DNA from: Norana najaformis
Taxonomy: Eukaryota; Annelida; Clitellata; Crassiclitellata; Hormogastridae
Direction: 5' to 3'
DNA length: 64,000 nucleotides
Assembly: GCA_964023275.1 (NCBI GenBank)
Contig: OZ029928.1
Coordinates: 2,232,001 to 2,296,000 of the forward strand
This document shows, in pieces, positions 15,681 through 64,000 of the stretch (its first letter is position 1; every line of letters begins with the position of its first letter). A program made the translations under genes and the position numbers. The notes under the pieces are model-generated. The model was not told the origin of the DNA and searched no databases. It worked only from the letters and a program-made list of their open reading frames with translations.

Positions 15681-15879
15681 TAAAAGGCCGCAATCCTAAT
15701 GTGCAATTCAATTATTGTTCGGAGACTATTAGACCAATAGCTATTATGGTTAGTCTGTGATAAGGAAAACACTTATAAACAAAGCAACAGACAAACAAGA
15801 GATATAGCCCTCTCCTCTCATATCTCGCCTTATCTGGCTACCTGGCTGAATTAAAACACAACTCTTTCTCAATATCAAG

Positions 15880-17155
15880 ACTTTATTCCGCCTGGCTACC
15901 ACTTGTGCAACACACTTCGACCCTCTAAATCATCAACTCTTGCAATATCAAAGCGTAGGTCTGGGTTAGACACGGCAAAACTGTTTCCTGGTGTTAGACA
16001 TAGTGGCGATGAGTTTAGTACCTTACTTCCCGTTACAGTACAGGAAGTTGCTAAACTCACCGGAACTGTTCCATCTAAGTCATCACGACTGGACTTCATT
16101 TCGACTTCTCTTGTTAAATCCTGTTCAGATGTGCTTTCTATCCTCATTGCTCGCCTGGCTAATTTCTCCTTTGGTGAAGGCCGTTTTCCCTCAGCATTTA
16201 AAACTGCTCTTGTTACACCTCTACTAAAACCTGATCTTGATAAGGACTGTCTGGCTAATCATCAGCCTATTTCCAATCTGAATAATATCTCCAAACTGCT
16301 TGAACATCTATTTCTCATACGTCTTCAGGGGCATGTAAAATCTTCTCCAAAATTTAGCCCTTTTCAGTCGGCTTATCGTAAACAGCATTCAATTGAGACT
16401 GCTCTTGCTGGCACACTGAACAATATATTTAACTCAATGGATTCTGGCAAAGCATATCTTCTTTTATCCTTTGATTTGAGTGCTGCATTTGATACTGTAG
16501 ATCATGGTATTTTGTTGTCTCGACTCTAAAATTCTTTTGGAATTTCTGATTCTGCTCTTAAGTGCATGTCTTCTTAACTCAAAGATCGTTCTCAACGAGT
16601 GGCAATAAACTTCGATTTGCAGGTCTTGTTTCTACTACATCAAGGCATTTCGTCACATCAGACATTCTCTGACTAATGACATGAATAAAACAGTGGCATG
16701 TGCGCTTGTTGGCTCTCGATTAGATTACGCAAATATACACAGTATATCCTCTTTTATTGTAAAAACGCTCTAGAGAGTTCAAAACTCTCTTTCTAGGGTT
16801 GTTACATGTTCTTCTTTAGCAAATGCATTAGATCGCTTTCGTGAACTTCACTGGCTTCCTGTTGAATAACGAATTAAGTTTAAAATTGCATGCTTGACCT
16901 CTAAGGCTCAGAACACTGGTCTTCCATCATATCTTAATACTTTGTTGACTCCATATCGCCCTCCTCTTGCGTTCTTCTGATACTGGTTTGTTGCAAGAAT
17001 CCAGGTTCAGGACAATTGTAGGATCACGTGCCTTTAACTGTTGTGTTCCTCGCATTTGGAATCGTCTCTCACAAAAGGCCCGACTTGTAAACTCGCTATC
17101 ATCTTTTAAATCACTTCTTAAGACTAACTACTTAACCCTGGCTTTTGCATGATTC
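15880..17155 (+). mobile_element. CR1-like LINE, internally deleted
   Basis: An open frame of 208 codons (15903-16529) covers the fingers and palm of reverse transcriptase: FKTALVTPLLKPDLDKD, a degraded NYRPISNL motif (NHQPISNLNNISKLLEHL), FSPFQSAYRKQHSIETAL and LLSFDLSAAFDTVDHGILL, which carries the first catalytic Asp. The YADD region is missing: sequence jumps at about 16620 to FRHIRHSLTNDMN and SRLDYANIHS. ELHWLPVE-RIKFKIACL and SSDTGLLQESRFRTIVGSRA follow, ending with FKSLLKTNYLTLAFA. So it is a deletion derivative of one LINE copy. It belongs to the CR1/Jockey grade, but to a different family from the neighbouring fragment. Confidence 0.8.
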
Positions 17156-27500: not shown

Positions 27501-27823
27501 ATGAGCATCTGAAGGAAATCAATAGTACTAGAGACTTCATGAAGCAGTTTTAGCAATACAGCTTTATGAGCCGGATCTAAATGTAGAACTGTAATTGATT
27601 GTTGATCAAGAGATGTCATAATTGTCACCTTTTCATAATCTTCAAACAATCTCACTAGCACTTAAGAAAATACTCCTTGCATGGGAAAATCGAATCAGTT
27701 TTGGTCTGCCATACTAAATGAAGTTAGTAAAAAATTTAATGCTGTAATAATATTATGTATTCTTAGTTTCAGAATAATCATTTTGTAAGATAATAATTGG
27801 TGAAAGCTGCGCTTCTATCAACC

Positions 27824-27862
27824 ATGTCGGAAAGCATTTACACGATCATTGCCTTAACATGA
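27824..27862 (+). promoter_or_regulatory. Short upstream ORF overlapping the zinc-finger start
   Basis: ATG at 27824 in strong context (ACCATGTCGG) opens a 12-codon frame whose TGA (27860-27862) overlaps the ATG of the zinc-finger ORF at 27859, forming ATGA. It could affect initiation on the main frame. The paralogue at 55.8 kb lacks this ATG. Relevance depends on transcript structure; a splice acceptor (TTTCAG) lies about 50 bases upstream. Confidence 0.5.
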
Positions 27863-29475
27863 GAACCAATGTTCATAATGAAGAAAAGTCATATATATAC
27901 CAGTTACATCAGAAATCATTTGCACAGGTTGATAATCAGATGAGTCATATTAGAACTGATACTGGAGAAAGATCATGGAAATGTCAGCTTTGTCAGAAAT
28001 CATTTGCAGACTTTCGTAATATCAAGCGTCATATGAGAACCCATACCGGAGAAAGACCATACAAATGTCAGTTATGTCAGAAATCATTTGCTCAAGAGAG
28101 TCATCTGAAGACTCATCTGAGAACCCATACTAAAGAAAGACCATACCAATGTCGGCTATGTCAGAAATCATTTCCTCAAGAGATTCATCTGAAGAATCAT
28201 CTGAGAACCCATACTAAAGAAAGACCATACCAGTGTCAGCTATGCCAGAAATCATTTGCTCAAGAGATTCATCTGAAGAGGCATCTTAGAACCCATACTG
28301 GAGAAAGACCATACTTATGTCCATTGTGTGAGAAATCATTTGTACGAGAGAGTCATCTGAGGAGTCATCTGATAACCCATACTGGAGAAAGACCCTACTT
28401 ATGTCAGTTGTGTAAGAAATCATTTGCACAAGATAGTCATCTGAAGAGTCATCTGATAACCCATACTGGAGAAAGACCCTACTTATGTCAACTGTGTGGG
28501 AAATCATTTGCACGAGAGAGTCATTTGAAGAGTCATCTAAGAACCCATACTGGAGAAAGACCATACAAATGTCAGCTATGTCAGAAATCATTTGCAGAAT
28601 TGGGTCATCTAAAGAGTCACATAAGAACCCATACTGGAGAAAGACCATACCAGTGTCAGCTATGTCAGAAATCATTTGCTAATTTTTGTAGCATGAAGAG
28701 TCATCTGAGAACCCATACTGGAGAGAGACCTCACAGATGTCACCTATGTCAAAAATCATTTGGAGAAGCTTGTTGTGTGAAAAGTCATATGAGGTCTCAT
28801 ACTGGAGAAAAGCCTTACATATGTCACTTCTGTCAGAAATCGTTTTCATGTTCAGGCAGTTTGAGAAGTCACATGAGAAGCCATACTGGAGAAAAAACGT
28901 ACAGATGTATTTTTTGCAAGAGATCATTTGCGCATTTAAAAGATCTGAAGAGGCATACAAGAATTCATGCTGGAGAAAAACTTGATGTATGTGAGGTTTG
29001 TCATGGATCATTTATAGAACCTAGAAATCTAAAGAGACATAGAAGAACCCACTCATGCGAAAAGTCGTTCATATGCAAGAAGCCGTTTATGGAGAGTAAT
29101 TCGCCGATGAAGCATTTTAAATCCCCTCCAGGATTAAAGCCGCAAGATCTTAACTTGAAGATAAAAGTAATTAACCTTTTTGATCAATGCACATCACTGA
29201 GTAGTCCAAATATTAATGATGAAAGAAAATATCTTTTGCTGAAGAAGATACCACATGATTTGAATGAAATTACAGATCTTCCAAAGAAAATTGGAGTTGG
29301 AGAATGTATTGATATGAAAATATTGAAATCACTTGACACTGTAAAACATTTCTTGGCAAAACCTTATGGATGTGGGATATGTGATGGATTGTTTGAAATA
29401 GAGAAGGAATTTCGAGAGCATTGTTTTAGGCATGGCTTTTCTGCACCTGATGATTTATTTGTTGACCTATGCTGA
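27859..29475 (+). CDS. C2H2 zinc-finger protein, 13 canonical fingers (paralogue A)
   Basis: 538 codons in a single exon. A degenerate N-terminal finger ([10 protein letters not shown]) is followed by 13 C2H2 fingers at about residues 40-400, joined by TGERPY or TKERPY linkers, then a broken finger ([10 protein letters not shown]). A tail of about 130 residues has no classical fingers until a final [18 protein letters not shown] unit near the C-terminus. Protein ends DLFVDLC. Such arrays are nuclear sequence-specific DNA-binding proteins, usually transcription regulators. No KRAB, SCAN, BTB or ZAD domain is visible. The start aligns with the ATG of the paralogue at 55813, and a conserved TTTCAG acceptor upstream suggests 5' non-coding exons. 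Frame fully open, so probably functional. Expression and target are unknown. Confidence 0.9.
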
Positions 29476-46219: not shown

Positions 46220-47891
46220 TCATTCGACACCGAAGAAGCTCCTTTTGTACGATTTCCGAGTGTGGCATCTGCCGGAACAATCGCGCATAATATTCCAGCA
46301 ATAGTCTGCCATCATGTGTGCATCCCATCTTCCTTGATATCGATTTTCCATTGTTTTGATGTCTTGGTGAAATCTTTCACCTTGCTCTTCGCTGAAGTCA
46401 CCAAGATTCTCTGGAAAGCGATCTAAGTGACTGTGGAGATAATGGACTTTAATGCTCATGTTGCAGCCAAGCTTGTTGAAATGAAGAAGCATATCCTTTA
46501 CTAGTTGTGCATAATTGTCTGCCTTCTTGTTGCCAAGAAAATTTTTACTTACAAGAACAAAGGAAGACCAGGCACAAGATTCGATTTCATTCATTGATGG
46601 TATGAAAAGTGGGTCATTCATAAGTTGCCTGATCTGTGGACCATCGAAGATTCCAGCCTTCAATTTTTCCATTGTAATTCCTGGTAACTTGTGTACTATG
46701 TATTTGAAGCATGAACCTTCTTTATTCAAAGCCCTGACAAATTGTTTCATCAGGCCTAGCTTTATATGTAGTGGTGGCAGTATGATCCTATCTCGTGTCA
46801 CCAAAGATTCCTTGATTACATTTTGAGCTCCAACCACCATGTCTTTCCTCGAAGGCCAATCTTTTCTTGTCCAATGTTCATGCTTGGCTCTACTGTCCCA
46901 AAGACACAAAAAGCAGGGATACTTTGTGTAGCCACTTTGTTGACCAAGGAGGAAATTTGCCATCTTCAAGTCTACACAAATTACCCATTGATGTTCTTTG
47001 TATTTTATCTTTTCCAGTACTAAAGAGATGGCATTGTACTCTTATTTCATCTTGGTGGAATGACCGATTGGAATAGAACCAAATTTGTTGCCGTTATTTA
47101 AAAGCACACATTTCAGACCACGTTTTGAACTGTCGATAAAAAGACGCCAATCATCTGGGCTGTAATCCGACAGACCAATTTTCTTCAATAAGTTGCTGAT
47201 GTCATTACAGAATACTAGGTTGTTGTCTTCGGTAAAGAATGGCAGCAAATCCTTTTCTCTGTTTCTATAAATTGTAATTTTCGTTCCAGGCTGAAGTGCA
47301 TTCTTTTCCTTTAGTCTGGACGCAAGCAATTCAGAGGACTTAAGATGGAAAGATTTAAGTCCCTGATCAGATCACTCAACTCTTTTTGGTCAAAACGTTC
47401 ACTGTGTGAAGTTGATTGGAAATCACTGTCACTGCCCCCACTTTCTTCACTTTCGTCATCTTGTCCGATATTGGACATGCAAGTCTCATCGTCTGAGAGC
47501 TGAGGTAGTTCGCGAAAAGGTGGAACTGGTACAATATCCGAATGCGGAACAGGTCTCCTGGCTGAAGGTATATCAGGGTAAGACAACTTGTGACGATTAT
47601 TTCGATTGATGCCTATGATATTAACCATACAAAAGTAACCATCGGTACACCAAATTTCAGGCAGCTTCTCTTTCCAATTGTCCAGTGGCGCAATTGTTCA
47701 ATACAAGTTTTGCATACTGTATGAGGAGCCCATTGCTTATCTTGATCTCCAAGTTTGACACCAAAATAACCTACATATGCTCTTTTTACAAACTCAGAAA
47801 TCGGTTTCCTGTTTGCTTTTAGTGTGTATTCCCCACAAATGTAGCAGAATATGTCTGGATGGTTAATGCAGCTCCGTCTGGAAGTAGCCAT
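46220..47891 (-). pseudogene. Relic of an unclassified transposon-like ORF (family T2)
   Basis: Minus-strand pieces in order: 47891-47613 with two Cys pairs (CYICGEYTLKANRKPISEF, then HTVCKTCIEQLRHW); 47628-47311 (acidic, Ser-rich); 47329-47042 (PFFTEDNNLVFCNDISNLL, then DDWRLFIDSSKRGLKCVLL); and a long open part to 46220 (YTKYPCFLCLWDSRAKHEHW, LPPLHIKLGLMKQFVRAL, EEQGERFHQDIKTMENRYQG). Two frameshifts and an in-frame TAA just after 47045 break it. The C-terminal 250 codons are intact. From memory, this is a multi-copy uncharacterised family common in arthropods and other invertebrates, probably from a DNA transposon; no transposase catalytic triad was identified with confidence. It lies in intron 2 of the lectin-like gene, antisense to it. 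Confidence 0.6.
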
Positions 47892-51310: not shown

Positions 51311-52499
51311 AGAATCTGGTTACCGTGCGTCCCTATCATATTTGGTAATGCACAATGTTATTCAGCTGGGTTGAAGATTTTATTCGCTTGCACAGCCCTG
51401 TCATACATGTCAAAAACAAAGAAACTGTTGAAACTTTTTCTTATCGATGTCAGCGGCCTTTGAAGCTAAATTATGTCGTTCTGGATTTGATGGCTGAACT
51501 TCCTGCTGGCATTCCTTTCAAGCTCTATGGTGACCGCTTCTTCACCTCATTGAACCTTGCTGAATGTTTGCGTTACAAGGGCTATGGCTACACAGGCACA
51601 GTCATGTCCAACAGGATGAAGCACTGTCTTATAACAACGAGTAAGATACTGGTGAAGCAGCCATGAGGGTCCATGGACTACAAGCTAGATGCAAAGTCAA
51701 ACTGTATTGTAGTTGCATGGAATGACAATCAGCCAGTGTACATGATCGGCAACGTTCATGGTGTAAATCCCATTGGATCATGTTTGCGTTGGGTGTCAGC
51801 GGAGAAAAAGAAGATGTCTCTTCAGGTTCCGGATGTAGTTGTAAAATACAACATGTTCATGGGAGATGTTGATCGTATGGACCAGAACATTGGCAGCTAC
51901 AGAGTTGTTGTACGATCAAAGAAATGGTGGTGGCCAGTTTTCGTATTCTGCGTCGAGACCAGTTTACACAACGCCTGGCAGCTGTACAGAAAAACCGAAG
52001 AAGGAACTGAACAGTCAATTGATTTATTGGAGTTTAGGAGAACAATTGTAGAGACTTATCTGATGAAATGTGCAGCTGACTCAAAAGGTGTTGGTCGACC
52101 AAAGAACAACAAAGCCTTGGAAAGCCGTGTTCCGGCACCTGTTCGTTTTGATCATACGGATCACTTTTTGGCACCAGCACTCAAGCAGAATAGATGTGCT
52201 GTGTGCCGAAAGAACACAGTGAAAATGCGTGATAAGTGCAAGGTCAATCTCCATGAATCCTGCTTCAAAGCTTTCCACGACAATTGACTTCCTTTTCCAT
52301 GTTTGCGTAGAGAATGGACATTTTGCTAACATTTGGTTGCTGCATTTATGAACTGAAACCCAAACGTCTATTGAATATGAGGGCTTCAACTTTGCCTAGA
52401 GAGTACTGTCGTAATGTTATGAGCCTCTGTACTTAGTTACTTCACTTAAAATAATTCATTGGTGCACTTGCTGATGTTGGCATGGATTATGCTATTGTC

Positions 52500-54149: not shown

Positions 54150-57100
54150 GGAGATTTGTTTAATTTATGCATGTAAGCAGTTCTTTCAGGTTATTTACTA
54201 ACTATTATGTAGAGCATATGGAATTGCTTCAAGTTCTTGTTACAGCTAGAAATTGAGCATAAGTGCACTTAGTTCTTTAGTATATTCGAGAAGTTACGCA
54301 CGTATATAATTTTAATGTTGTGCTTAATCGCCAGAGGACAGAGGATCGATAATCCAACCTTTAGTTAAAGCATGTTCTTTTTATTCAGCGCCATTTTGAT
54401 GACCTAGACAAAGAATTCATAACTTTTCTGTGCAGCATTATAATGGTTTAGGTGAGTTGCGGACGTTTCTGTGATTAATTACCCTCTAAGTATTTTTAAT
54501 TTATGCATAATTTCGATTACTACAGGGCAAAATTAGCTAACTCACTTCCATATTACGCAATATACTGCGACAGTTTTCTGACCCATCATACAAAGTCATC
54601 CATGCTCCACCCCTTGCAATTTCTGCCTCGGCCTTTCACTCAAGACTGGAAACATTCCTGTTTCACAGTTCCTATTCTGACACCCCTTCTTCATCATGAC
54701 CTGCAGTTTATTAGTAGAGAATTTGAGATTATGCATCGGTTTCTCCCGTTTCCATACATATGTGTTTTAAGAGTGGCATTCTTCTGTACTAATTTTAAAC
54801 TTTGACTGTGCTGTTTTCTTTTTGAGTTCACACTTCCAACAGCGCTTGACACATAAATTATAAATAATTTCCTGCTCATAGTAGTCTTCCAAAATGTTTT
54901 CCTGTCTGATATGTAAAACTGATATGTAAACGTATTACGAGCTTCAAGGCCTTCCACTCTATTGCCATTAATCCCCAAGACAGTCCTTCTGTAGCTTTTA
55001 GCAAATATGACGCCTTAAAGAAATCATTTTCCACAGAGTTGCAAAGTCGGAAAAGTCTAGACCATATGCAGTCGTGAAGGCGAAAATTATGTGAAGCGGA
55101 ATATTGGATCTCCTTTCTAACACAGCAGCCACTGCATCATATTACTGTGGCCAAGAAGTTATGCCAATTGATAACTACTGGTATTTCAAATTTGGAAGCA
55201 TTTAATTTTTTATTTATCCATAGGAACGCTGGCTCATGTTTTTATAGATCTTTGTTATTATGAACTTTACCCAAAATGTCCTTCAATGCAAACTCTGTGT
55301 AGATCTTTGAAACAGGTCTTGCCAATTTTTATGTATTTTAAGTTTACATTATTCAGACTAAGCCATGGATTTACTCAGAAATAGTTTACATGACATTTAA
55401 GCTCAGCATTTACACTAAGTTTAGATTTTGTTCTTCCTGAAAGTGAAAAGTCAGCATTGGAAGGAGATGAACAATATGCTTCTAGAAACTTCATGATTCA
55501 GTTAAATTAACAACTTCGTGAGCCAGATATAGAATTGCAGTTGGTTATTATTCCTCAGTTGTTGTGACTGTCAACTGTTTCATAATCTTTGATTAGTGAC
55601 ATTAACATGCCAGCAAAAATATCTTTCATGAGACCATCAAATCAGTATTTGGACTGTCAGACTGAATTAATATACCGTTAGCCCAAAACTGAATGCTTTG
55701 ATATTATTTGTATTGTTTGTTTCAGAATAATCATTTCATAAGACAATAATTAGTGAAAGCTGTACTTCTACCAACAATTTCAGAAAACATTGATATAGGT
55801 CATTGCCATACTATGGACACCATGGTTCATGATGAAGAAAAACCTAACAAATACCACTTACATCAGAAATCATTTGCACAGGTTGAAAAAAGGACGAGCC
55901 ATACTAGAGAAAGACCATACAACTGTCATTTATGTCAGAAATCATTTACAAACGTTGGTAATTTGAAGAAACACATAAGAATCCATACTGGAGAAAGACC
56001 ATACAGATGCCAGTTATGTCAGAAGTCATTTGCACAAGTTGGTACTTTGAAGCGACACATAAGAATCCATACTGGAGAAAAGCCATATAAATGTCAGTTT
56101 TGTCAGAGGTCATTTGCAGAAGTTGGTCATCTGAAGTGTCATGTGAGAACCCATACTGGAGAAAGACCATACAGATGTCAGTTATGTCAGAAGTCATTTG
56201 CACAAGTTGGTACTTTGAAGAGACACATAAGAATCCATACTGGAGAAAAGCCATACAAATGTCAGTTATGTCAGAAGTTATTTGCAGATCTTGGTTGTCT
56301 GAGGAGTCACACAAGAACTCATACTGGAGAAAAACCATACAAATGCCATTTATGTCAAAAGTCATTTTCACAATCTGGTCGTATGAAGATTCATATGAGA
56401 ACCCATACTGGACAAAAATCATACAAATGTCAGTTTTGTCAGAATTTATTTACTGAAATTTGTAATCTAAAGAGTCACATGAGAACCCATACTGGTGAAA
56501 AACCATACTTATGTCAATTATGTATGAAATTGTTTGCACAGGGGAATCATCTAATGATTCATTTGAGAACCCATACTGGAGAAAAGCCATACAAATGTCA
56601 GTTATGTCAGAAGTCATTTGCAGATGTTGGTAAGTTGAAGACACACATAAGAATCCATACTGGAGAAAAACCACACAAATGTCAGTTATGTCAGAAATCA
56701 TTTACCGTCGCTTTTACTTTGATGGGACACATGAAAGCCCATACTGAAGAAAGACCATACAAATGTCAGTTTTGTCAGAAGTCACTTGCAAACCTTTGTC
56801 ATTTGAAGGCGCTTGCAAAAAGTCATACTAGAGAAAAACCTTATGTGTGTGAGGTTTGTCATAAAGCATTCAGAGAATGTGGAACTCTAAAGAAACACAG
56901 AAGAACCCACATAAGCGAAAAGTCGTGCATATGCAAGAAATCGTTTACCAACAGTAGTTCGCCAATCAAGCATTTTAAATCCCATTCAGGATTGAAGCCA
57001 TCAGATCCTAAATTGAAGAGAAACATAATTAACCTTTCTGATCAATGCGCGTCACGGAGTAATGCAGACATTAATGATGAAAACAATGATCGTTTCTTGA

Positions 57101-57640
57101 GGAATATATATCTCGATTCGAATGAGTTTACAGATCTTCCAAAGAAAACTGGAGTCGGAGAATGTCTTGATATGAAAATATTGAAATCACTTGAGAGTGT
57201 GAAACCTTTTCTGGCAGAACCTTTTGGATGTGGGATTTGTGATGGAATGTTTCAAATACAAAAGGAATTTCTACAGCATTGTTCTAGCCATGGATTTTCT
57301 CCACCTATTGATTTATTTATTGGTCTATGCTGAGTTATAATTGGCCATATTTAAAAAAACTGAAATTCGATTTGAACACTTGTTTTTGTGTATCCCTTTG
57401 ATATCTTCAATTTTTCGAAATGCTAAGCACTTTGCTGTACAGGACAGAAATTTGAGGAATAAAATGTCATGGCTAACAACAAAACAGAAGAGTAATTCGT
57501 CACATATCTAATTAACAAGTATTGGAAATGTGGGGCAAGAAATAGAATAAGACTTCCACTAAGAGAAGAGTAAGTTTCAGATGAAACTGAGCAGTCTTTG
57601 AATTTGACAGTGAAAAGGCATTTGTACAACTTTATATTAA
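54150..57640 (+). repeat. Segmental duplication, copy B
   Basis: Collinear partner of 24395-29960. It is shorter because it lacks most of the LINE and SINE insertions and the tandem duplication found in copy A, though a short LINE-like piece occurs near 54600-54700. Confidence 0.85.
55813..57333 (+). CDS. C2H2 zinc-finger protein, about 11 canonical fingers (paralogue B)
   Basis: 506 codons from the ATG at 55813, chosen because it aligns with the start of paralogue A and because the 20 codons upstream lack an ATG. A degenerate N-terminal unit ([10 protein letters not shown]) is followed by fingers with TGEKPY-type linkers. Finger 11 has lost its first zinc-binding His (HLKALAKSH), finger 12 is canonical, and a broken unit (CICKKSFTNSS) follows. 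The tail ends with CGICDGMFQIQKEFLQHC and DLFIGLC, matching paralogue A. Fingers 2 and 4 are identical in protein sequence, pointing to a recent two-finger duplication. A TTTCAG acceptor lies upstream at 55725. Role by family: nuclear DNA binding, probably transcriptional control. No effector domain is visible. Frame intact. Confidence 0.9.
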   Translation: MDTMVHDEEKPNKYHLHQKSFAQVEKRTSHTRERPYNCHLCQKSFTNVGNLKKHIRIHTGERPYRCQLCQKSFAQVGTLKRHIRIHTGEKPYKCQFCQRSFAEVGHLKCHVRTHTGERPYRCQLCQKSFAQVGTLKRHIRIHTGEKPYKCQLCQKLFADLGCLRSHTRTHTGEKPYKCHLCQKSFSQSGRMKIHMRTHTGQKSYKCQFCQNLFTEICNLKSHMRTHTGEKPYLCQLCMKLFAQGNHLMIHLRTHTGEKPYKCQLCQKSFADVGKLKTHIRIHTGEKPHKCQLCQKSFTVAFTLMGHMKAHTEERPYKCQFCQKSLANLCHLKALAKSHTREKPYVCEVCHKAFRECGTLKKHRRTHISEKSCICKKSFTNSSSPIKHFKSHSGLKPSDPKLKRNIINLSDQCASRSNADINDENNDRFLRNIYLDSNEFTDLPKKTGVGECLDMKILKSLESVKPFLAEPFGCGICDGMFQIQKEFLQHCSSHGFSPPIDLFIGLC

Positions 57641-58990: not shown

Positions 58991-60465
58991 ATGTCAAGCA
59001 GTTCCCCGATCCTATCTAAAAACGTAGCTTCTTTGTCTGAGTCTGGAACTGACGAGTCTTGCTCCAGCCCCTGCCATTCATAGAATAGTTGCTTGAACTG
59101 GAAGTGGGTTGAGAGAGCACTGTTTAGCTGGTGACAAAAACATTACCATAATTACATCCTCGCGGTAATCTGATCTGAACTCACACAAGCCTGGGGAAAG
59201 GCAATTGGTGAATATTGCACCGCTCCCGTCACACGTCGATGCTCGGATGTCAGCGATTTTTGTTTCCATGTAGCCGTGGTAGGTAGCAGCGGAAAAACCC
59301 TGATCTCGAGGTATCTTTATCTTCGTCAAACAGGTGGTTTACTGATTGCCACACACCACGCTGATTGGTGTAGATACTGAAGATGCTGCAGTAGACCTTC
59401 TCGCCTTAGAGCTGGCTCGCATGCATGATCTGAATATACCGATGTTGGTGCCTTCAATCGACGATCCCATATGCCCAGACAAATTAACAGCAGTTGAATG
59501 GAAAAAGTAAGCATTTTTTAACTGTTTGAAGCTTTCATATCCGACAGTGCGACAATAAATTCATTTCACCACAAGTCAATAAATCATTCATCTGGAGGAG
59601 TATTGCGATGGCTAGGCTAGAACAGTGCTTTAAAGTAATTTTGAAGTGACCATTTTATAGGGTTTGCGGAACTTGACCCTCTAAGTCAATAACTACCGTA
59701 ATTGCGGTTTTAGGCTGGAATACTTCAGAAATTATTTACTACTGTTGATGCATAAATGAAAAAAGCTTAGAATCTATAATTTAGAGCTTACAAAACTGTG
59801 GCATGTAAAGCAAAAGGTATACCTAACAAATTTATTTCTTGTGAAAATAAGAAACTTTGGCGTTATTAAACAAGTTTGTTTCCACTTCAATTCTTATATG
59901 CGAGTTTATTAGAGAATTTTTAACCTGTTTTTCGACATTTAGGAAAGCGAAAACCGCTAATTAGACAATCCCATAAGCGATCATCGACTGAGGCTATATA
60001 TGTTACAACATTGGCGCCATGTAAGTTCTTATTAGATTGCATCAGTTTAGATCAGATCATACTAGGTAAGGTTACCGTAGATGAGATTGGCTTCTGATAT
60101 ATTTTGTGCTATTGTTATGCTATAAATGCAAATGAAATAGAATTTTTAAAGTTTTCACCTAAAAGTTAGTTGCATCGTTTAAAAGAAGCAATTTAGCATT
60201 TAGAATTGCTGCTTGTTATGTTTCCAATTTACAGTTGTAATGAAGCTGATGATCGATGCAACAAAGGCCTATAGAATTTGACAGAATGGCTTCCGCCACT
60301 TGTCTCCTGTTGCAATTATAATAATTCGTTAAACAACGTTGTATACAAAGAGACATCGAAAAAACTATTGATGGCTACACAATATACTTTTAACATCTCG
60401 CTTTAATGGTTAGGATTATAGACTAATCGACATGAAATCGAAATAGTCCTGCGCGCTTTAGTCCA
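58991..60465. other. No firm gene
   Basis: Minus-strand ORFs at 59078-59329 (83 codons) and 59326-59514 (62 codons) may extend the T1-like relic but carry no motif I recognise. The rest is AT-rich. Confidence 0.35.
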
Positions 60466-62916
60466 TTAGCCACCTACACAGCGTGTGTACAACTGCATCT
60501 GGCTGCCACTCTTAATACCAGCTTTTTCCACTGTAATGCTGGACCCAAGATTTAATGCGCTACCTGTAAAAGACAAAATTAAAAACAATGGCCTTTTGTT
60601 ATATACAGGAACAGACGAATAATTATGTAAATGCCAAACGAAATTAGCATTATTGTCAGCAAAGCAATGATGTCCAGATGTTTAATTCCACGGCGGTTCA
60701 TCCTATAGTTCAGCAAGCTATCAGCTATTTCGTTCAGCCTGCAATGGCATATAGCCCACATACTTATTGTTACTTCTTAAACATCTTTTGTAAAATCGGC
60801 GCATTAAACACACACCTGTTGGATTGCAATGACAGGCCAAGGAAGCGATTTGGCGAAAGTGATTGGAGCACGAATTTAGAAATACGCAGTGATATTAATT
60901 TGATATTTTAACATCTCAAAGGTTTTTGTCTATTAACAATTTTAAAGCCACTTTTGGCTCGTTCCTTTAAATATCAAATTGCACTGGCTCCCACTTGGAC
61001 GTTGTATGATATATTGAGTAAGCAATACTCTAAGCCTTTAAATGCAAATATGTAGTCTACAGAATAAACCAGATAGGTTAGAATATTGTAAAGATATATG
61101 CAATTCAGTATCTTACCTTGGAAGACCAGATAAACGTTGTCATTGGATCCTAATCCAAACGCTCTGGACACATGTCGAATCAAGGTATCAACAGAGTCAC
61201 TCTGCATAAAAACAAAAATACAGATCTCTCAGATGCAGAACTGTCTTGGACTCTCGTACATTCAACTCTGCTGCCCCCTCAAGGAATGGAACCGACTACC
61301 GATGTTTCTTCAAAGCTCGAGCTTTTTTGCTCTCTAAAAGAAGGGCCTGAAAACTCACTATTTCTCACTGGCTTTCAAACAGCGGGCTTTTTAACTGCTT
61401 TTGCCTGGCGTCTGTTGGAGGCGGTACACGATCGAATATCAGTCAAAATCAAAACTTTCAACAAAGCTCAGAAATGTTGATGAAAAGAAAATTAAATCCG
61501 TGAGGTAAACTAGTGTTTTACCATTTCCATTGTGTGTACTGACTTTTCTGTTGTCTCGGTTTTTTCTTAGGTTTCGTTAGTTTTAGGCTTCTTTATACTG
61601 ACTGCGGTGTCTGTTTCGGTTTTCTGAGGAGCGCGATGTCGGTTCGGTATCGATTAAACTGACTGACCACAACTTTGTATATAATTCAAAGCCTATTTTC
61701 TATTCGGTCTGAGTCTCCACTGGTTTAATTACCAGTATCGTTAACTTAAAATTTATTTTTTGAGAATTAATTAATTTTAAACTTAATTCTTTCAAAGTAA
61801 TTAATTTTAAAATAATAGTTAAATGAACATTAATTATAATATTAATTAATTTCAATATGATTGTGGATAATAATTAAGTTTAAATTAGTTTTGAGAAGAA
61901 TTAAGCTCTTGGTTTTACTGTAGCTACATGAGCGCCGGCTTGATCAGCGTTTTCTCATATTCTTTCAATGTTGGATGCATCAGTTTCAAAGAGCAAAAAG
62001 TTCTAAACGAATTTCGTAGAAACAGGTTTCAAAAGCCTTTGTAGAGAGTTAGAATTGGCTAGTTTGATCGCTATAGCCACAAAATACATAGATTTTTGCT
62101 ACAGTGTACTTTTGCTCGGGCGGACCAGAATGTCATTTCTTTTTTAAATGCCTTGTGTAAAAAACTTAATGCAAAATTTATAACAAAAAATAGAAGTTTG
62201 GAATGAAGCAACGTAAAGAGTGTAATACTCACCGTATTGATGTTCACCGGAATGGTCTTGCCGGTAGGTCCAACAGCGTATACTTGTATGTCTGAGTAAC
62301 AGTGCAAAAATATTGGTCACAATGCCTGGCTGTGTTTTATGTCATTTATTCAGATATATATATATTGCTCAGTAGATGGCGAATCATAGGAGAATATTCT
62401 AGAGTTCTTCAATAACTTCTGTTTTATCTTAACTTTAGGTTGAAATGCATACAAGATAAACGAGTTCATGTCATACAGGTCGTGGAGACGCATAATAAAC
62501 TACGAATTATGCCTATCTGACTTTCTTATCCTACTGAAGGAATTTCCTTTGTATGTCGTTCTGCGACAGATTGTCACATATCACCCATAATAATCACCTG
62601 TCGTTTTGCTACCAGCTTCTGAAGCAGATTTTGCTTTTGACTACGGTCATATTTCAAGCGACCATCGACTGATGTCTTGTGCATTACGATAATGCCGCTA
62701 TTAGATTAGACTTGACTAGATCAGAACATCGCCGGACCCAGTGCTTGGAACAGTCTGCCTGACAATGCGGCGAATGCCCCATCCCTGGACACATTCAAGT
62801 CACGACTCAAGACACATCTTTTAGGATAACTTATGACTGTAGTTGATTTTTGTTTTTTAACCCATGTACAGCGCCCTTTTCTTCGGCCTCGGCTGTGCTA
62901 CGGCGCTATATAAATT

Positions 62917-62992
<76 letters not shown>

Positions 62993-63107
62993 ATAGAACA
63001 GATTACATAAGAAAACAAATCATACGAACTCTGAGCAGTACTCTGCCGGTTAGAATACGAATTAGACCCTGAAAGCAAATCGACCACTTACATTGTAATC
63101 TGGCCAT
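60466..63107 (-). CDS. Divergent ubiquitin-like protein ending in Gly-Gly, 3-4 exons
   Basis: Minus-strand exons: 62291-62233, 61201-61117 and 60563-60466, with GT-AG borders and matching phases (0 and 1). A 16-nt first exon at 63107-63092 (ATG in AAATGG context, donor GTAAGT, phase 1) would supply the start and is tentative. The product is about 85 residues. IQVYAVGPTGKTIPVNINT matches the first hairpin of ubiquitin. SDSVDTLIRHVSRAFG is the helix. NVYLVFQGS covers the Ile44 patch (Val here). ITVEKAGIKSGSQMQLYT and then RCVGG-stop complete the fold. Ubiquitin Lys11 and Arg72 equivalents are kept; Lys48 and Lys63 equivalents are Ser. A free C-terminal Gly-Gly suggests a conjugatable modifier needing no processing. 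Function and partners are unknown. It could instead be a decayed ubiquitin-family copy, but intact frame and splice sites argue against that. Confidence 0.75.
61480..62060. other. AT-rich intronic sequence
   Basis: Very AT-rich, with repeated TTAATTAATTTTAAA-type runs near 61740-61900. It lies in the intron between the first two firm exons of the ubiquitin-like gene. No other gene seen. Confidence 0.5.
62655..62992 (+). mobile_element. LINE 3' end with (ATT)n tail
   Basis: GCGACCATCGACTGATGTCT at 62657 is shared with 18985. From 62738 the frame reads AGPSAWNSLPDNAANAPSLD then TFKSRLKTHLLG and a stop, the CR1-type C-terminus. The 3' UTR has TACGGCGCTATATAAATTG and ends in about 23 ATT units (62917-62992). 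It lies in the putative first intron of the ubiquitin-like gene. Confidence 0.75.
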
Positions 63108-63654: not shown

Positions 63655-63820
63655 CATTAAGCGCCAATGTCTAACAACTAACCATCAATCGATGGCGCTA
63701 AGAAATTGTGAGTGAAGGACTTGCTCAAGGTCCGTACACAGTAATCGTCTCGCGGAGGTCGAACACGTACTCCCCGCGTTACAAGCTGAACACTCTATCC
63801 TATCGGCTACCATGCTCAAC
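63655..63820 (-). repeat. tRNA-derived SINE (family B), copy 2
   Basis: Same organisation as 25440-25615: a tRNA-like head at the right (GGTAGCCGATAGGATAGAG, then a degenerate box B in TGTTCGACC), a body with CGCCATCGATTGATGG, and a 3' end GGCGCTTAATGTATGCAG. More decayed than copy 1. Confidence 0.6.
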
Positions 63821-64000
63821 TTGAGTGTAAAATGTTGCTATTATTAGGTTGCGCAGCACATGGTGTATAAAGCTGCAAAATCATGACTAAAGTACAACGT
63901 GAAAACCTAACAACACTGCTAGGAAAACACCGCAAACACCCTATTTTGAAAAAACTTGGATTCGACATGAAACCTCCAATTCCACTGTCAGCTGACGACC

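Follow-up and report, generated by a model that had tools for sequence, protein, structure and literature searches.

Does the minus strand near one end of this stretch of annelid DNA encode a ubiquitin-like modifier of its own, made with a free C-terminal Gly-Gly, and is it a gene that has been kept rather than a relic? The window, by which we mean the whole stretch of 64,000 nucleotides that was analysed, corresponds to C16:2232001-2296000 (contig OZ029928.1) in the genome of Norana najaformis, and searches were performed on that same genome, which comprises 608,420,607 bases in 17 contigs.

Three minus-strand exons join in phases 0 and 1 to encode a 79-residue ubiquitin-like domain that reads IQVYAVGPTGKTIPVNINTSDSVDTLIRHVSRAFGLGSNDNVYLVFQGSALNLGSSITVEKAGIKSGSQMQLYTRCVGG and runs through CVGG directly into a stop (Table 1). 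The positions and the two junctions, 62233/61201 and 61117/60563, are those originally predicted, and splice scores back them. These scores were obtained with a weight matrix and ranked against the GT and AG dinucleotides in the surrounding 6 kb (354 GT, top 1% from 5.7, median -5.5; 355 AG, top 5% from 1.5, top 1% from 3.6). Both donors, as well as the acceptors of exons 2 and 3, belong to the regional top 1%, and the acceptor of exon 1 to the top 5%.

Table 1. Positions of the ubiquitin-like (Ubl) gene, its candidate upstream exons and its duplicate on contig C3.
Feature	Position	Strand	Description
Conserved Ser-rich open frame, window part	63956..64000	-	MGDKSGRDTPDSGIWSPDDASRRSSVSSTDHSNGMQGRRSSADSGIGGFMSNP; ATG at 64115, past window end; possible N-terminal exon
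Tentative first exon (e0)	63092..63107	-	MARLQ + 1 base; 16 bases; ATG, GTAAGT after
Ubl exon 1	62233..62291	-	First beta hairpin, IQVYAVGPTGKTIPVNINT; acceptor 3.2, donor 6.4
Ubl exon 2	61117..61201	-	Helix and third strand, SDSVDTLIRHVSRAFGLGSNDNVYLVFQ + 1 base; acceptor 4.7, donor 6.4
Ubl exon 3 and stop	60466..60563	-	GSALNLGSSITVEKAGIKSGSQMQLYTRCVGG, then stop; acceptor 4.7
C3 e0 equivalent	C3:29867616-29867601		Layout as in window copy, GTAAAT after
C3 exon 1	C3:29867070-29867012		Acceptor 5.5, donor 6.4
C3 exon 2	C3:29866555-29866471		Acceptor 4.1, donor 1.8 (weaker)
C3 exon 3	C3:29865300-29865203		Acceptor 7.0

At a threshold of E 0.001, a protein search of the whole genome returned five matches, three of them the exons on C16 and two on C3, representing two genes; the third C3 exon was recovered in a local search (E 0.006). 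The C3 gene reads IQVYATGPNSKTITLNISTNDPVDTLIRHVSKAFGLGSSDNTYLVCDGKTLNFGSSLTVGKADIKNGSQMQLCTRVLGG followed by a stop, has the same exons and phases as the C16 copy, is identical to it at 56 of 79 residues, and ends in RVLGG and a stop. A second copy with the same exons and the same ending makes the locus look like a real extra protein tag. The duplication exceeds the gene, with alignable blocks extending from window position 60049 to 67683 when the contig is followed beyond the window.

Elsewhere in the window are two similar open frames that have C2H2 zinc-finger arrays and resemble each other in their C-terminal tails (55750-57333 and 27778-29475, identified by eye, with Pfam applied to the first), and two mobile elements recognised by Pfam, a reverse transcriptase frame (15855-16529) and a DDE_Tnp_1_7 transposase frame (51667-52287). 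A frame at 46220-47041 was grouped with the mobile elements and has no Pfam match.

Comparison of the C16 and C3 copies over 79 codons gave dN 0.17, dS 0.52 and omega 0.34 (bootstrap 0.16-0.68, with 0.3% of 2000 replicates at or above 1), a low value that rests partly on the high synonymous rate: the dS of the pair exceeds the flank rate, which may itself be an underestimate, since it was taken from alignable blocks only. No indel was observed in the 242 coding bases of exons 1 to 3, compared to 5.3 expected from the flanks (37 gaps in 1701 aligned bases; P 0.005). The copies differ at 23 amino acids, fewer than the average of 31 (P 0.0018 and 0.0023 from two starts) in neutral simulations that applied the substitution pattern of the flanking noncoding DNA and the same number of base changes in 4000 runs per start, and that retained runs with stops, which slightly raises the mean. 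The lack of indels and the deficit of amino-acid differences indicate that both frames are maintained. However, exon identity between the copies was 78.0, 81.2 and 78.6% for exons 1, 2 and 3 (about 79% overall), against 81.5% in flanking noncoding DNA, and differences at first and second codon positions (27 of 158) occur at about the rate seen in the flanks. Because the exon DNA is no more conserved than its surroundings, constraint is weak or change fast, and on a fair reading both frames have been kept while constraint was weak or many sites changed fast.

The equality of exon and flank identity would also be expected of a decaying pair, that is, of divergent ubiquitin-family genes drifting towards pseudogenes, and both the weaker exon 2 donor of the C3 copy and the presence of stop-bearing ubiquitin copies in the same genome are consistent with decay. 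We consider this improbable in view of the P values of 0.005 for indels and about 0.002 for amino-acid differences, and because neither copy has a stop or an indel and both have intact GT/AG at the exon 1-3 junctions; the absence of stops is a weak point, since the probability of finding no stop is alone about 0.2. The C3 duplicate, with its conserved Gly-Gly and frame, sustains the earlier claim of a real, maintained ubiquitin-like gene, and the window locus is a new member of the ubiquitin-like family with one maintained duplicate.

Both copies belong to the ubiquitin-like (beta-grasp) superfamily, as each has a whole-domain profile match above the curated cut-off. Pfam Rad60-SLD (PF11976) scores the window copy at 29 bits and the C3 copy at 26.1 (cut-off 23.8), and in the window protein residues 7-77 match positions 1-69 of the 72 in the profile (E 9.6e-7), bearing out the ubiquitin fold that had been proposed. 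The Pfam ubiquitin model gives 20.8 and 15.4 bits, both below its cut-off of 25.4. A search of solved structures gave 261 matching sequences (E up to 10), the best 60 of which are ubiquitin, its chains, fusions or engineered forms, except for two Tako8 rows in which no stretch passes alone; the single ubiquitins among the best 60 score about 18-22 bits (E 0.0017-0.023). In the tree, the pair falls on the ubiquitin side, away from SUMO (support 100/100), on a long branch of its own. The name of the best Pfam model hints at SUMO, but membership was rejected because Rad60-SLD also scores the genome's own polyubiquitin at 66-67 bits and because the tree separates the pair from SUMO. SUMO also has Gln or Glu at the place of Arg72 and a tail after Gly-Gly, whereas the pair has Arg and a stop directly after Gly-Gly. 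Nor is the window protein ubiquitin itself: in addition to scoring below the Pfam cut-off, it has 21/76 identities with ubiquitin (21/74 with NEDD8), with insertions of one and two residues, and the pair ends in TRCVGG or TRVLGG rather than in LRLRGG accompanied by K48 and K63. Unlike ubiquitin, the window gene is one unit with introns and no tail, and has lost K48, K63, K27, K29, K6, K33, R42 and L8. A search for viral relatives gave 26 stretches in viral contigs that matched a pattern, none of which was confirmed, and phages yielded no relative at E up to 0.1.

The original prediction also held that the Gly-Gly end has no tail, and a stop indeed follows Gly-Gly directly in both copies, as in proteins of the FAT10 (UBD) type that are made mature. 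Modifiers made with a mature Gly-Gly are already known (PMC11354881 and PMC6539292), and FAT10, URM1 and ATG12 are reported in the first of these sources as translated in mature form, so that a free Gly-Gly end has precedents. FAT10 was compared by description, from PMC6539292 and PMC9378703: its CYCIGG end resembles RCVGG in having Cys and an aliphatic residue before Gly-Gly, but it has two Ubl domains (PMC6539292) and Tyr at the Arg72 place (PMC9378703), whereas the window protein has one domain and Arg. ISG15 differs in its tandem Ubl domains (PMC8228270), its synthesis as a precursor (PMC11354881) and its LRLRGG end; the assembled exons hold one domain, and the candidate N-terminal exon has no Pfam match. 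URM1 and ATG12 were likewise compared by description; the APG12 profile scores the window protein at 12.5 bits against a cut-off of 22.8, and the Pfam list searched holds no URM1 model.

Other loci of the ubiquitin family were observed in the genome. At C10:1886097-1886549, a 167-residue open frame encodes ubiquitin and, after it, a second, divergent Ubl that ends in VYGGGGVAPDAETG; the layout resembles the tandem one of ISG15, and pieces of a similar second domain occur on C14. The minus strand of C11:20872501-20875500 has a 257-residue open frame, 225 residues of which were scanned, that joins an interferon-induced Ifi-6-16 domain, scoring 80.9 bits against a cut-off of 29.1, to a Rad60-SLD domain of SUMO-like type (26.7 bits against 23.8); it ends without Gly-Gly and might continue by splicing. 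At C14:7848453, C16:8360570, C17:7547701 and C17:7547945, the matches to ubiquitin are interrupted by a stop, and these copies are apparently pseudogenes.

Alignment with ubiquitin gave the following residues in the C16 and C3 copies, respectively: K6 V/T, L8 P/P, K11 K/K, K27 I/I, K29 H/H, K33 A/A, R42 Y/Y, I44 V/V, K48 S/K, K63 S/N, H68 Q/Q, V70 Y/C, R72 R/R, L73 C/V and R74 V/L, with G75 and G76 kept. The predicted replacement of Lys48 and Lys63 by Ser and the loss of Lys27 and Lys29 thus apply to the window copy, the loss of Lys48 being specific to it, and the Lys11 and Arg72 equivalents are retained, as had been proposed for the window copy, in both copies. According to PMC9378703, R72 is the primary specificity determinant for the E1 enzyme UBA1, R42 also contacts E1, and the R72 place is held by Ala in NEDD8, Gln or Glu in SUMO and Tyr in FAT10. 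Retention of Arg72 with loss of Arg42 is compatible, at the level of sequence, with either UBA1 or UBA6 and does not discriminate between them.

These substitutions also suit a Ubl that is not conjugated and acts by binding, its Gly-Gly being either incidental or a signal for degradation at the C-terminus. Proteins that end in glycine are recognised by some E3 ligases. Loss of Arg42, change at residues 73-74, alteration of the Ile44 surface (L8 to Pro, H68 to Gln, V70 to Tyr or Cys) and fast change overall all agree with such a role, but Gly-Gly and Arg72 are kept in both copies though residues 73 and 74 differ between them, and we regard it as unlikely. On balance, we favour the view that this spliced gene encodes a small ubiquitin-like modifier that evolves fast, exists in two old duplicates (C16 and C3), is probably made mature and would be conjugated via its Gly-Gly. 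Counting against this interpretation are an exon identity no higher than that of the flanks and the presence, in both copies, of Tyr at ubiquitin Arg42, the E1 contact described in PMC9378703. The sequences themselves establish the exon structure, the fold family (by profile), the ending, the duplicate, weak purifying selection and the retained Arg72; we infer the expression, activation, choice of E1, conjugation and substrates of the window protein. By analogy, it would most likely be made already mature, with Gly-Gly exposed without processing; this end could then be adenylated by an E1 of the UBA1/UBA6 type reading the retained Arg72, followed by transfer to an E2 and attachment to lysines of other proteins. 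The window copy would act mainly as a single tag and not as a Lys48 or Lys63 chain, because its domain holds only three lysines, none of them at either place.

The first codon of Ubl exon 1 needs one base from an upstream exon, and e0 supplies that base. Its ATG, an in-frame TAA directly upstream and the GTAA after it are common to both copies; its donor scores 4.1 in the window copy and -2.1 in the C3 copy, and the two align with two one-base gaps that cancel each other. The Ser-rich frame (64115-63956) could serve as first coding exon, either the true one or an alternative. The claim that the protein stands alone therefore holds on its C-terminal side, given the stop after Gly-Gly in both copies, and is shadowed on the N-terminal side by this conserved frame. 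It is possible, though not the reading we would put first, that the Ubl exons make up the C-terminal portion of a longer protein, one that has a Ser-rich tail at its N-terminus and is still ended by Gly-Gly. Such a protein may be either a tailed modifier or a Ubl adaptor that is not conjugated; this reading is compatible with the modifier interpretation favoured above. The frame, which precedes exon 1 by about 1.7 kb on the strand of the Ubl exons, was duplicated with the Ubl and has a C3 counterpart with ATG at C3:29870464 that is 86.9% identical without an indel (3.5 expected, P 0.03). It has no Pfam match, and a genome search (E up to 1) gives two hits for it. Changes between the copies fall at third positions in 12 of 21 cases, with omega 0.40, but the bootstrap range (0.16-1.02) reaches 1.02 and one antisense frame, with one stop, gives a similar 0.35. 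The open frames after MSNP are wholly different between the copies, suggesting that the conserved part may end by splicing. Against a longer protein, exon 0 provides another start, neither copy has a phase-1 donor better than -2.8, and the one such donor that they share (GAG followed at the junction by GTTTCA) scores -4.8, compared to the regional GT median of -5.5. As no convincing phase-1 donor was found for the frame in either copy, we retained both the e0 and the Ser-rich-exon models, and the C-terminal Gly-Gly-stop stands under either.

A plus-strand divergent neighbour starting near 63878, considered as the upstream limit of the gene, was dropped because it has no Pfam match and overlaps the minus-strand frame conserved in C3. 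Window positions 63700-63815, between the Ser-rich frame and exon 0, hold a short dispersed repeat, perhaps a SINE, with at least 42 matches including itself (40 of 1569 first-look candidates were scored).

Many ubiquitin-like modifiers are old and widely shared among eukaryotes. It is conceivable, though rather doubtful, that the present pair is a modifier of non-vertebrate origin, derived from ubiquitin, tail-less and probably mono-attached, that is independently analogous to FAT10 and ISG15, its two fast-evolving paralogues keeping Arg72 and Gly-Gly and possibly acting in immunity. Under such an analogy, the rebuilt Arg42 and Ile44 surfaces would change how E1, E2 and receptors read the protein. 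For the question of how a modifier parts from ubiquitin while using, or avoiding, its E1, a fast-changing pair that lies on the ubiquitin side and exposes Gly-Gly would offer a natural test, and the C16 and C3 copies provide this comparison directly, with Arg72 and Gly-Gly fixed and residues 73-74 and Lys48 changed.
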